Origin: Kitasatospora xanthocidica
GTDB lineage: Bacteria; Actinomycetota; Actinomycetes; Streptomycetales; Streptomycetaceae
Reading direction: 5' to 3'
Length of the DNA stretch: 64,000 nucleotides
NCBI RefSeq assembly: GCF_014656195.1
Contig: NZ_BNBY01000003.1
Location: forward strand, 62,001-126,000
Part shown: in pieces, positions 12,331-15,904 of the stretch
Position numbering within the stretch: position 1 is the first letter of the stretch
Layout of the letters: each line of letters starts with the position of its first letter
Notes under the pieces: model-generated
Told to the model about the DNA's origin: nothing
What the model saw: only the letters and a program-made list of their open reading frames with translations
Databases searched by the model: none
Position numbers and translations under genes: made by a program

Positions 12331-12650
12331 GCCGCCGCCTCCCGTCCCTCCGACCCGACTCCGACCCGACTCCGGCCGGGCCCGGCCCGACCCCGGCGCC
12401 AGCCGGACGTGCCCACCCTAATCAATCGGACATACCAGGCCGGGTCGGACAGGCGGGGCCCGGTCGACGGGCACGCGGCGGGCAGCCGGGTCCCGTACGG
12501 CTATTGACTACTTGTCCAACAGTGGCGATTCTCGTCACACCGAGTGCGCGGTCCATGACGGCCGGCCCGGACGGGCCGGTCCGCGCGTCCCCGACGGCGC
12601 CCGGCAACCCCCGGGCCGCGCCACCCTCACTTCGGACCCGGGTGGTGACC
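12331..12650. promoter_or_regulatory. Intergenic region with a candidate vegetative promoter
   Basis: 320 bases between divergent genes. TTGACT (12504-12509) and GATTCT (12527-12532), 17 bases apart, resemble a HrdB-type promoter reading right toward the M19-like gene. The left part has short CCCGACTCCGAC repeats. No coding frame is supported. Confidence 0.4.
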
Positions 12651-14744
12651 ATGCCCCAGTTACCCCACCGCAGGCGCGGATTCGTCACGCTTCTGGCCGC
12701 ACTTCTGACCCTGACCACCATGCTCTTCGCCGCTCCGGCGCCGGCCGCTCCGGCACCCCCGGCACCCGCGCCCGCGGCCCCGGGCGAGACCGGCTGGTGG
12801 AACCCGACCGCCCGACCGGCGCCCGACTCGCAGATCAACGTCACCGGCGAACCGTTCCGCGGCACCGACGCCCAGGGGAAGGTCCGGGGCTTCGTCGACG
12901 CGCACGACCACATCATGGCCAACGAGGCCTTCGGCGGACGGCTGATCTGCGGCAAGTCCTTCTCCGAGGCAGGGGTCGCGGACGCCCTGAAGGACTGCCC
13001 CGAGCACTACCCCGACGGCTCGCTCGCGATCTTCGACTTCATCACCAAGGGCGGCGACGGCAAGCACGACCCGGTCGGCTGGCCCACCTTCAAGGACTGG
13101 CCGGCCCACGACTCGCTCACCCACCAGCAGAACTACTACGCCTGGATCGAACGGGCCTGGCGCGGCGGCCAGCGGGTGCTGGTCAACGACCTGGTCACCA
13201 ACGGGGTGATCTGCTCGGTCTACTTCTTCAAGGACCGCAGCTGCGACGAGATGACCTCGATCCGCCTCCAGGCGCAGAAGACGTACGAGCTGCAGGCCTA
13301 CATCGACACCATGTACGGCGGGCCCGGCAAGGGCTGGTTCCGGATCGTCACCGACAGCGCGCAGGCCCGCGCGGTGGTCGAGCAGGGCAAGCTGGCCGTC
13401 GTCCTCGGCGTGGAGACCTCCGAGCCCTTCGGCTGCAAGCAGGTCCTCGACGTCGCCCAGTGCTCCAAGGCCGACATCGACCGCGGCCTGGACGAGCTGT
13501 ACGGGCTGGGCGTGCGCAGCATGTTCCTCTGCCACAAGTTCGACAACGCGCTCTGCGGGGTGCGCTTCGACGAGGGCGCGCTCGGGACGGCCATCAACGT
13601 CGGCCAGTTCCTCTCCACCGGCACCTTCTGGAAGACCGAGAAGTGCGCCGGCCCGCAGCACGACAACCCGATCGGCCTCGCCCCGGCACCCGGGGCGCAG
13701 CAGCAGCTCCCGGCGGGGGTGACGGTGCCGGCCTACGCCGGCGACGCGCAGTGCAACAGCCGCGGACTGACCGACCTCGGCGAGTACGCGGTGCGCGGGC
13801 TGATGAAACGCAAGATGATGCTGGAGGTCGACCACATGAGCGTCAAGGCCGCCGGGCGCTCCTTCGACATCCTGGAGTCCGAGTCCTACCCGGGCGTGAT
13901 CTCCTCGCACAGCTGGATGGACCTCGACTGGATCGAGCGGGTCTACAAGCTCGGCGGCTTCGTCGCCCAGTACATGAACAGCGCCGAGGCGTTCAGCGCG
14001 GAGGCCGAGCGCACCGACGCGCTGCGCGACAAGTACGGGGTGGGGTACGGCTACGGCACCGACATGAACGGCGTCGGCGGCTGGCCCGGCCCGCGCGGGG
14101 CGAACACCCCCGATCCGGTGCGCTACCCGTTCCGCAGCCAGGACGGCGGCTCCCTGATCGACCGCCAGACCACCGGTTCGCGCACCTGGGACATCGACAC
14201 GGACGGCGCCGCGCACTACGGCCTGGTCCCGGACTGGCTGGAGTCGATCCGGCAGGTCGGCGGCCAGGGCGTGCTGGACGACCTCTTCCGCGGCGCCGAG
14301 TCCTACCTCACCACCTGGGGCGCCTCGGAGCGGCACGACGCCTCGGTGAACCTCGCCGCGGGCCGTCCGGCCACCGCCTCCAGCACCGAGTGGTGGAACC
14401 CCTTCGTCAGCTTCGCGCCCGGCCGGGCGGTGGACGGCGACACCGGCACCCGCTGGGCCAGCGAGTGGAGCGACGACCAGTGGCTCCAGGTCGACCTCGG
14501 CGCCACCGCCCTGGTCGGACGCGTCACGCTGGACTGGGAGCGCGCCTACGGGCGGGCGTACCGGATCGAGGTCTCCACCGACGGGAGCAGCTGGCAGTCC
14601 GTCTGGTCCACCACCACCGGACACGGCGGCCTGGACACCGCCCGCTTCACCGGCGTCCCGGCCCGCTACGTCCGCGTCCACGGGGTGCAGCGCGGCACCC
14701 AGTGGGGCTACTCCCTGCACGAGCTCGGCGTCTTCAGCGGCTAG
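12651..14744 (+). CDS. Secreted M19-like dipeptidase/amidohydrolase with C-terminal F5/8C domain; TTA at codon 4
   Basis: A 697-residue protein with a signal peptide (RRRGFVTLLAALLTLTTMLFA, cut near APAPA). The catalytic part (about residues 80-560) has a metal-dependent hydrolase layout: VDAHDHIM, VVLGVETSEPFG, LCHKFDNALCG, LEVDHMSV, VISSHSW and GYGTDMNGVGG, all carrying His/Asp/Glu that can bind metal, similar to membrane-dipeptidase (M19) relatives. The last 140 residues form a discoidin (F5/8 type C) domain: NLAAGRPATASS, AVDGDTGTRWAS, WLQVDLG, ARYVRVHG, which usually binds carbohydrate. Codon 4 is TTA (12660-12662), implying bldA control. GTG 12645 is an alternative start. Confidence 0.82.
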   Translation: MPQLPHRRRGFVTLLAALLTLTTMLFAAPAPAAPAPPAPAPAAPGETGWWNPTARPAPDSQINVTGEPFRGTDAQGKVRGFVDAHDHIMANEAFGGRLICGKSFSEAGVADALKDCPEHYPDGSLAIFDFITKGGDGKHDPVGWPTFKDWPAHDSLTHQQNYYAWIERAWRGGQRVLVNDLVTNGVICSVYFFKDRSCDEMTSIRLQAQKTYELQAYIDTMYGGPGKGWFRIVTDSAQARAVVEQGKLAVVLGVETSEPFGCKQVLDVAQCSKADIDRGLDELYGLGVRSMFLCHKFDNALCGVRFDEGALGTAINVGQFLSTGTFWKTEKCAGPQHDNPIGLAPAPGAQQQLPAGVTVPAYAGDAQCNSRGLTDLGEYAVRGLMKRKMMLEVDHMSVKAAGRSFDILESESYPGVISSHSWMDLDWIERVYKLGGFVAQYMNSAEAFSAEAERTDALRDKYGVGYGYGTDMNGVGGWPGPRGANTPDPVRYPFRSQDGGSLIDRQTTGSRTWDIDTDGAAHYGLVPDWLESIRQVGGQGVLDDLFRGAESYLTTWGASERHDASVNLAAGRPATASSTEWWNPFVSFAPGRAVDGDTGTRWASEWSDDQWLQVDLGATALVGRVTLDWERAYGRAYRIEVSTDGSSWQSVWSTTTGHGGLDTARFTGVPARYVRVHGVQRGTQWGYSLHELGVFSG

Positions 14745-14779: not shown

Positions 14780-14829
14780 CTCCCTTATTGCTAGGATGTT
14801 GCAATTGCAGAATGCTAGCAATAAGGGAG
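14780..14829 (+). promoter_or_regulatory. Nested palindromic operator or hairpin over the promoter/RBS of the tsaD-like gene
   Basis: CTCCCTTATTGCTAG (14780-14794) is repeated as an exact inverted copy at 14815-14829, with a 20-base spacer that itself contains the palindrome TGCAATTGCA (14800-14809). TAGGAT (14792-14797) inside the left arm matches a -10 element, and AAGGGAG in the right arm is the ribosome-binding site of ATG 14837. A repressor bound here would block transcription; a transcript covering it would hide the RBS. Confidence 0.7.
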
Positions 14830-14836
14830 ACGTGTG

Positions 14837-15904
14837 ATGGCGGGACCACCGGTGGTGCTGGGGATCGAGTCGTCCTGCGACGAGACCGGTGCCGGTCTGG
14901 TGCGCGACGGCGTGCTGTTGGGGCACGCGGTGGCGTCGTCCATGGACGAGCACGCGCGCTACGGCGGAGTCGTCCCCGAGATCGCCGCCCGCGCCCACGT
15001 CCACGCCATGGCCCCCGTCGTCCAGGAGGCGCTGGACCGGGCCGGGCTCGCCCTGACCGACATCGGCGCCGTCGCCGTCACCACCGGCCCGGGCCTGTCC
15101 GGCGCCCTCCAGGTCGGCCTGGCCGCCGCCAAGAGCTACGCCTTCTCCCTCGGCGTCCCGCTCTACGGGGTCCACCACCTCGCCGGGCACGTCGCCGCCG
15201 CCACCCTCGACGGCGGGCCGCTGCCGAACCCGTGCATCGTCCTCATCGTCTCCGGCGGGCACACCTCGCTGCTGCTCGTCCGGGACCTCGCCCGCGACCC
15301 GATCGTCCACCTCGGCGACACCCTGGACGACGCCGCCGGCGAGTGCTTCGACAAGGTCGCCCGGATCCTCCGGCTCCCCTACCCCGGCGGCCCCGCGATC
15401 GACCGCGCCGCCCGCGACGGCGACCCGAAGGCCGTCCGGCTGCCCCGGCCCCTGAGCGGGCCGAACGACCCCCGGTACGCCTTCTCCTTCTCCGGCCTCA
15501 AGACCGCCGCCGCCCGCTGGGTCGAGGCCCAGCGCGCCGCCGGCACCGAACCGCACGTCCCGGACGCGGCCGCCGCCCTCCAGGAGGCCATCGCCGACAC
15601 CCTCACCCGCAAGGCCGTCCGGGCCTGCACCGACCACGGCATCGACACCCTCGTCGTGGTCGGCGGGGTCGCCGCCAACTCCCGGATCCGCGCCCTCACC
15701 GAGCGGCGCTGCGCGGCCGCCGGCATCACCCTGCGCGTCCCTGCGCTACGGCTGTGCACCGACAACGGCGCCATGGTCGCCGCCATCGGCGACCTCCTGG
15801 TGCGCTCCGGCGCCCGACCCGCCCCGATGGACATCTCCATCGACCCCTCGGCCCCGCTGGAGTACGCCGCCCTCACCCCGCTCGCCGCGATCCGCGCGGC
15901 GTGA
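14837..15904 (+). CDS. tsaD: TsaD-like tRNA threonylcarbamoyladenosine transferase
   Basis: A 355-residue member of the Kae1/TsaD family, which transfers the threonylcarbamoyl group to A37 of ANN-decoding tRNAs with TsaB and TsaE. It begins [13 protein letters not shown]. The metal ligands are in [10 protein letters not shown] and in CTDNGAM near the C-terminus. ATP-binding motifs VSGGHTSL and [10 protein letters not shown] are present. ATG 14837 is used because AAGGGAG lies seven bases upstream; GTG 14834 is possible. The usual actinomycete partners (tsaB, rimI, tsaE, alr) are absent and the promoter is heavily palindromic, so this may be a second, regulated copy; the genome must be checked. 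Confidence 0.85.

Follow-up and report, generated by a model that had tools for sequence, protein, structure and literature searches.

A 50-bp palindrome over the promoter and ribosome-binding site (RBS) of tsaD2, a second tsaD gene of Kitasatospora xanthocidica, is likely to be a double Nur operator, and the enzyme encoded behind it, TsaD2, a t6A isozyme for nickel starvation that would be able to replace its paralogue TsaD1. Nur, a repressor of the Fur family, acts in its nickel-loaded form on sodF and nickel uptake; t6A is a tRNA modification of almost all organisms. The parts of this reading that we infer are the binding of Nur, the control by nickel, the activity of TsaD2 in t6A synthesis and the reason why TsaD1 should need help at low nickel. 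The gene lies in a stretch of 64,000 nucleotides (the window), whose relevant features are as follows.

14780..14829, no strand: 50-bp palindrome, consisting of two abutting Nur-box-like sites with outer arms that reach the RBS
14788..14804, + strand: Nur-box-like site 1, TTGCTA-GGATG-TTGCAA, 11/12 against the consensus of PMC3919588
14792..14797, + strand: -10-like hexamer TAGGAT within site 1 (promoter inferred from the sequence)
14805..14821, + strand: Nur-box-like site 2, TTGCAG-AATGC-TAGCAA, 10/12 against the same consensus
14823..14829, + strand: RBS AAGGGAG, read from the sequence, directly 3' of site 2 and 7 bp before the ATG at 14837
14837..15904, + strand: tsaD2, paralogous tRNA threonylcarbamoyl transferase of 355 aa (from TIGR03723 and the closest solved structures)
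15176..15190, + strand: codons of the metal ligands His114 and His118 (HxxxH), from alignment, with the TsaD2-typical His113 just before
15761..15763, + strand: codon of the third metal ligand, Asp309 (CTDN motif), from alignment

The outer arms of the palindrome are a perfect 15 bp (14780-14794 and 14815-14829) around the centre TGCAATTGCA at 14800-14809; a repeat search returned arms of 25 nt that are 88% complementary, with no spacer. The 15-bp arms, central palindrome, TAGGAT and RBS are all as described in an earlier sequence-only reading. That reading had also placed a candidate operator across the tsaD promoter and RBS, which can now be resolved into two putative Nur sites, with the -10 hexamer within site 1. 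For the Nur box, PMC3919588 gives the consensus tTGCaa-N5-ttGCAA, and the only sites in the 64-kb window that score at least 9/12 against it are 14788-14804 and 14805-14821. When other copies of the palindrome were sought in the 9.27-Mb genome, as that reading had proposed, the full pattern was found at this single place with up to 3 mismatches allowed (control pattern, 0). Both sites have the form TTGC-N9-GCAA, of which the genome holds 23, and two of these 23 abut at 14788-14821, the chance expectation for pairs within 100 bp being ∼0.005. The genome-wide list as a whole is mostly chance, since the backwards control gave 68 sites against 23. One further close pair is present in the genome, on contig C37 (L406, G000:C37:35801-35839), with its members 22 bp apart between divergent genes that we take to be SDR-like and TetR-like; it is probably a TetR-type operator. 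The protein encoded upstream of the palindrome (window positions 12504-14744) combines an M19 dipeptidase-like portion with a domain of the F5/8 type C family.

The palindrome might alternatively work as RNA, with a hairpin that masks the RBS and gates translation, as the sequence-only reading had allowed. The segment 14780-14850 does fold strongly (-34.3 kcal/mol, z -6.8), but the hairpin needs a transcription start upstream of the left arm, and a transcript from 14803 is unstructured (z +0.84). Since the left arm contains the -10-like hexamer, the transcript would probably lack that arm. Moreover, of two relatives whose sequences were folded, one has no hairpin (L010) and the other keeps part of it (L011), and an Rfam search gave no match for the palindrome, which rules out a known Rfam element. 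RNA gating is thus very improbable.

The tsaD2 product scored 396.7 bits against the TsaD model TIGR03723 (cut-off 296.1), which makes it a TsaD equivalog, and the solved structures closest to it are TsaD proteins. A GTG at 14834 is a possible alternative start. The H-H-D ligands (H114, H118, D309), whose roles in TsaD are treated in PMC4330362 and PMC11648230, are intact according to the alignment; H-H-D is the commonest state in every aligned group, and no variants were seen among those listed. Near-fixed differences between TsaD2 and TsaD1 include S12/T in the ESSCD/ETSCD motif, H113/N beside ligand H114, T143/S and C170/A. Given that H113 is common to Frankia-like TsaD1, and that S12 and C170 are missing in parts of the TsaD2 lineage, no single TsaD2 residue marks function.

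The other full-length tsaD of the genome (C6:291012-292034) is 61% identical to tsaD2 and stands in the order tsaE, tsaB, tsaD, groES/groEL. The names of the tsaE, tsaB and groES/groEL genes are presumptive, having been assigned by reading translations. With a full-length tsaD in the tsaE-tsaB locus, the window gene is a paralogue. The possibility that it was the only tsaD, which would have undermined the sequence-only reading, is thereby removed, and the expected second tsaD, with the window copy apart from the tsaB/tsaE locus, is present. TsaD1 is assumed to be constitutive.

To relate the box to tsaD2, the best consensus match (maximum 12) within 250 bp upstream of each gene was scored, with a threshold of at least 9, on comparative loci whose genes were called mechanically with a GC-bias filter and are not curated annotation. 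A box was found upstream of 101 of the 109 scored tsaD2 copies that coexist with TsaD1 (own genome 1/1, genus 26/29, other Streptomycetaceae 73/78, the outside-family genome G125 1/1). A genus copy scored later and standing outside this count (L044) has a box score of 9. Where tsaD2 is the sole TsaD, the corresponding count is 0/20 (0/3 in the family, 0/17 outside), and Fisher p-values overstate this evidence because the sole-TsaD2 genomes represent few independent lineages. TsaD1-type controls gave 1/106 (65 + 41 in two sets) and shuffled sequences 58/2160. The control count also disposes of the objection that the palindrome is an inert element common to housekeeping tsaD genes. In the 784 kb covered by 108 loci, 84 sites score at least 10, and 77 of them fall within 250 bp before tsaD2, a density ∼300 times that elsewhere in these loci. 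The distance from the box end to the tsaD2 start codon has a median of 31 bp, and in the aligned orthologous boxes the spacer is rich in A/T and YATTAT-like, thus resembling a -10 element.

The eight exceptions are of three kinds. In two (L028, L032), tsaD2 is the internal gene of an operon NiCoT-tsaD2-NiCoT, whose promoter region is shared with a divergent sodF and carries boxes scoring 10 and 11. Three copies (L008, L233, L289) score only 8 and look like weak sites. In the remaining three, the box is absent within 250 bp: L319 (G494, contamination 7%), L333 (G463) and L336 (G487). Family f13 has TsaD2-like genes (63-65% identity) that group with TsaD2 in the trees and have no box (0/4); they were left out of the 0/20 count.

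An XRE/DUF397-type operator was our first idea, and was dropped as the neighbourhoods with sodF and NiCoT genes pointed to Nur. In the first 38 loci, a sodF-like superoxide dismutase (SOD) gene was present near tsaD2 in 16 and a nickel transporter in 6, and it was these neighbours that made Nur the suspected regulator; among all 112 family loci, sodF adjoins tsaD2 in 20 and NiCoT in 6. K. xanthocidica itself has a box-like CTGCAAGTCATACGCAA upstream of sodF, a NiCoT-type transporter gene with a Nur-type box 63 bp before it, and two SODs, one sodF-type and one Ni-SOD (sodN). A perfect 12/12 Nur-box-like site also occurs at L407:1972-1988 (G000:C7:131471-131487), just 5' of a gene that we take to be SsgA-like (sporulation). 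The genome encodes a Nur orthologue (L172) that matches 3eyy at 1.9e-71, the structure 3EYY being Nur (PMC7055735).

Since Nur is assigned here from consensus and gene linkage, a different regulator with a TTGC-N9-GCAA operator might control tsaD2, and SrnR/SrnQ is described as another Ni-responsive sodF regulator in S. griseus (PMC7055735). However, the sites match the published Nur box, and like sites precede sodF and NiCoT genes in the same genome, both of which are linked to tsaD2 in relatives. We therefore consider another regulator quite improbable.

In 24 of the 112 family loci, tsaD2 is followed on its own strand by an alanyl-tRNA synthetase gene (TIGR00344), alaS2, which may be a second member of a nickel-controlled unit. 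A full-length example is L281:5161-7803, and alaS2 is also seen in the sole-TsaD2 loci L222 and L311. The HSGTH and CGGTH sequences of its product are presumably the AlaRS zinc-motif residues. As many as 15 of the 112 loci (L225, L281, L307 and L334 among them) have cobalamin biosynthesis genes next to tsaD2, which we take to be CobL/CbiD/CobM-like. The gene for another translation metalloenzyme, peptide deformylase, is found near tsaD2 in 11 loci (L204, L206, L209-L211, L213, L216, L217, L352, L353, L036). In Frankia-like loci, ureG follows the sole tsaD2 in 9 cases, and the one member scored was above the TIGR00101 cut-off. In 8 loci of Frankia-like and family genomes, including G125 and G478, the TsaD2-lineage gene has a Fur-family gene on its upstream side. 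This neighbour (L213, L206, L330 and others) is ∼34% identical to Nur, and in the Frankia-like loci it cannot confidently be called Nur.

Two further explanations keep Nur as the regulator. According to the first, TsaD2 would not spare nickel but would be a superoxide-tolerant TsaD made together with SodF, the loss of Ni-SOD exposing an Fe-loaded TsaD1 to oxidants. The adjacency of sodF in 20 of the 112 loci is consistent with this, as are the ability of TsaD to hold Fe2+, the oxidised Cys10 reported for A. aeolicus TsaD (excerpts of PMC11648230) and the position of S12, H113 and C170 within active-site motifs. It should be noted, however, that C170 is a cysteine gained and not removed, and that alaS2 has no evident superoxide link; we regard superoxide tolerance as rather unlikely. 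According to the second, Nur would act as a late-growth cue, translation being tuned during differentiation or antibiotic production by tsaD2, joined in some species by alaS2. The paralogues indeed belong to translation, and the 12/12 site stands before the presumed SsgA-like gene. Nickel limitation is also said to arise in the later phases of batch culture (PMC3919588). On the other hand, the pairing of tsaD2 with ureG in Frankia-like loci is a direct nickel link, and the patchy occurrence of tsaD2 speaks against a core developmental role, which leaves this second possibility unlikely.

Of the 70 genus genomes, 30 have a full-length TsaD2 (31 copies), as do 111 of 394 family genomes sampled. 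The full-length genus copies are 86-94% identical to the window copy, with the single exception of G040 (81%). Between the window copy and its nearest relative, 75 differences fall at third codon positions and 25 at first and second positions, which indicates constraint on tsaD2 at the protein level. Degenerate tsaD2 fragments were found in G007, G016, G034 and G041; the gene has thus been gained and lost, and its patchy occurrence and decay mark it as dispensable. A broken or partial tsaD2-like copy is also seen in G370, and sodF still adjoins the remnant in G007.

Midpoint-rooted trees based on selections of 59 and 58 rows (with G299 on a long branch) place TsaD2 as an old separate lineage, with 100/100 support against TsaD1. 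The sole-TsaD genes fall on the TsaD2 side of this split, whereas the TsaD1 genes of the family and those of ∼20 other actinobacterial genomes fall on the other. In a PF00814 scan, 21 of the 22 genomes with a TsaD2-like best match had a single full-length TsaD (G125 has two), and in a second scan the same was true of G354, G547 and G478 (G354 being common to both scans). The tsaE-tsaB locus is kept without tsaD in these three genomes and in two Frankia-like genomes; rimI was uncalled in the scanned stretches of G354 and G157. Because the lineage stands alone as TsaD where the tsaE-tsaB locus has lost its tsaD, it very probably does the essential t6A job, and TsaD2 appears able to replace TsaD1. 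The same observation disfavours a different substrate for the paralogue, which the sequence-only reading had suggested. In a single genus, both TsaDs occur without a box in G463 and G487, and G478 has lost TsaD1; from these three genomes, the expected order would be loss of the box first, with TsaD1 redundant thereafter.

We propose the following switch. With sufficient nickel, Ni-Nur would occupy the -10 region and keep tsaD2 off, most likely by blocking the promoter through site 1 and, through site 2, the region next to the RBS, while t6A would come from the constitutive TsaD1 of the tsaE-tsaB-rimI locus. When nickel is gone, Nur would be released and TsaD2 made, which together with TsaB/TsaE would support or replace TsaD1. 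Candidate reasons why TsaD1 should need help at low nickel are a nickel-loaded TsaD1, oxidative damage after Ni-SOD loss and a growth-phase cue. An alternative threonylcarbamoyl transferase made on demand, as the sequence-only reading put it, still seems the best description: its paralogue and operator have stood, its RNA gating and other substrate are disfavoured, and Nur and nickel did not figure in it. Several points run contrary to the switch: three coexisting copies are box-free and three score 8, tsaD2 is patchy (30/70) and decaying in some genomes, and many box-free Frankia-like tsaD2 genes still lie beside a Fur-family gene and ureG.

A more specific version, which we put forward only tentatively, is that in Streptomyces and Kitasatospora TsaD1 (perhaps also AlaRS1) carries nickel or depends on it, and that Nur there switches on a nickel-free TsaD2 and, in the 24/112 loci with alaS2, AlaRS2, beside SodF; after loss of the box, TsaD2 would take over permanently and TsaD1 disappear. 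Some bacteria would then have TsaD as a nickel enzyme, and nickel supply would control a universal tRNA modification. The metals named for TsaD in excerpts of PMC11648230, PMC4330362 and PMC9654439 are Fe, Zn, Mg and Mn, nickel not being among them there. Which metal TsaD holds in cells is unsettled, each of these four having been reported (PMC11648230, PMC9654439), and a nickel switch between two TsaD lineages, if true, would offer a natural handle on this question. Such a switch would also add tRNA modification to SOD and transport as processes under nickel regulation, and it is cleanly testable genetically, as tsaD1 would be dispensable at low nickel only. The history of TsaD2 offers a gradual path by which one essential enzyme may displace another.

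TsaD2 shares the fold family and H-H-D ligands of the bacterial TsaD proteins of E. coli, T. maritima and A. aeolicus. Unlike them, it belongs to an actinobacterial lineage of its own, in which fixed changes lie close to active-site motifs, and is apparently regulated and not constitutive. An older name of tsaD is gcp. The arrangement nur-gcp-ureG has been described for Frankia cluster I (PMC4531530, in part), and a Fur-family gene and ureG likewise flank the TsaD2-lineage gene in the Frankia-like genomes analyzed here. In contrast to K. xanthocidica, the Frankia-like genomes have no other TsaD, their gene lacks a box in the 250 bp upstream, and its Fur neighbour is only ∼34% identical to Nur.

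A nickel- or Nur-controlled tsaD was not found by title or abstract among open PMC papers, subscription papers being outside the scope of the search. The most similar regulon is that of Nur in Streptomyces coelicolor (sodF, nikABCDE and, inversely, sodN), with which the K. xanthocidica system shares the operator consensus, a Nur in the genome, a box over the promoter and an apparent isozyme for nickel shortage, comparable to the swap from SodN to SodF; the difference is that the predicted tsaD2 product modifies tRNA. Zur-regulated paralogues of Zn enzymes (listed in PMC2770081), e.g., thrS2 of Anabaena (PMC4787780), similarly combine a Fur-family repressor with a spare translation metalloenzyme, although the signal for tsaD2 would be nickel and the housekeeping TsaD has no known nickel use. 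By analogy, Zur control of ThrRS2 in Anabaena is the closest working model for the switch proposed here: as far as the excerpts of PMC4787780 go, the metal ligands are kept in both ThrRS copies, T1 and T2, as they are in TsaD1 and TsaD2.
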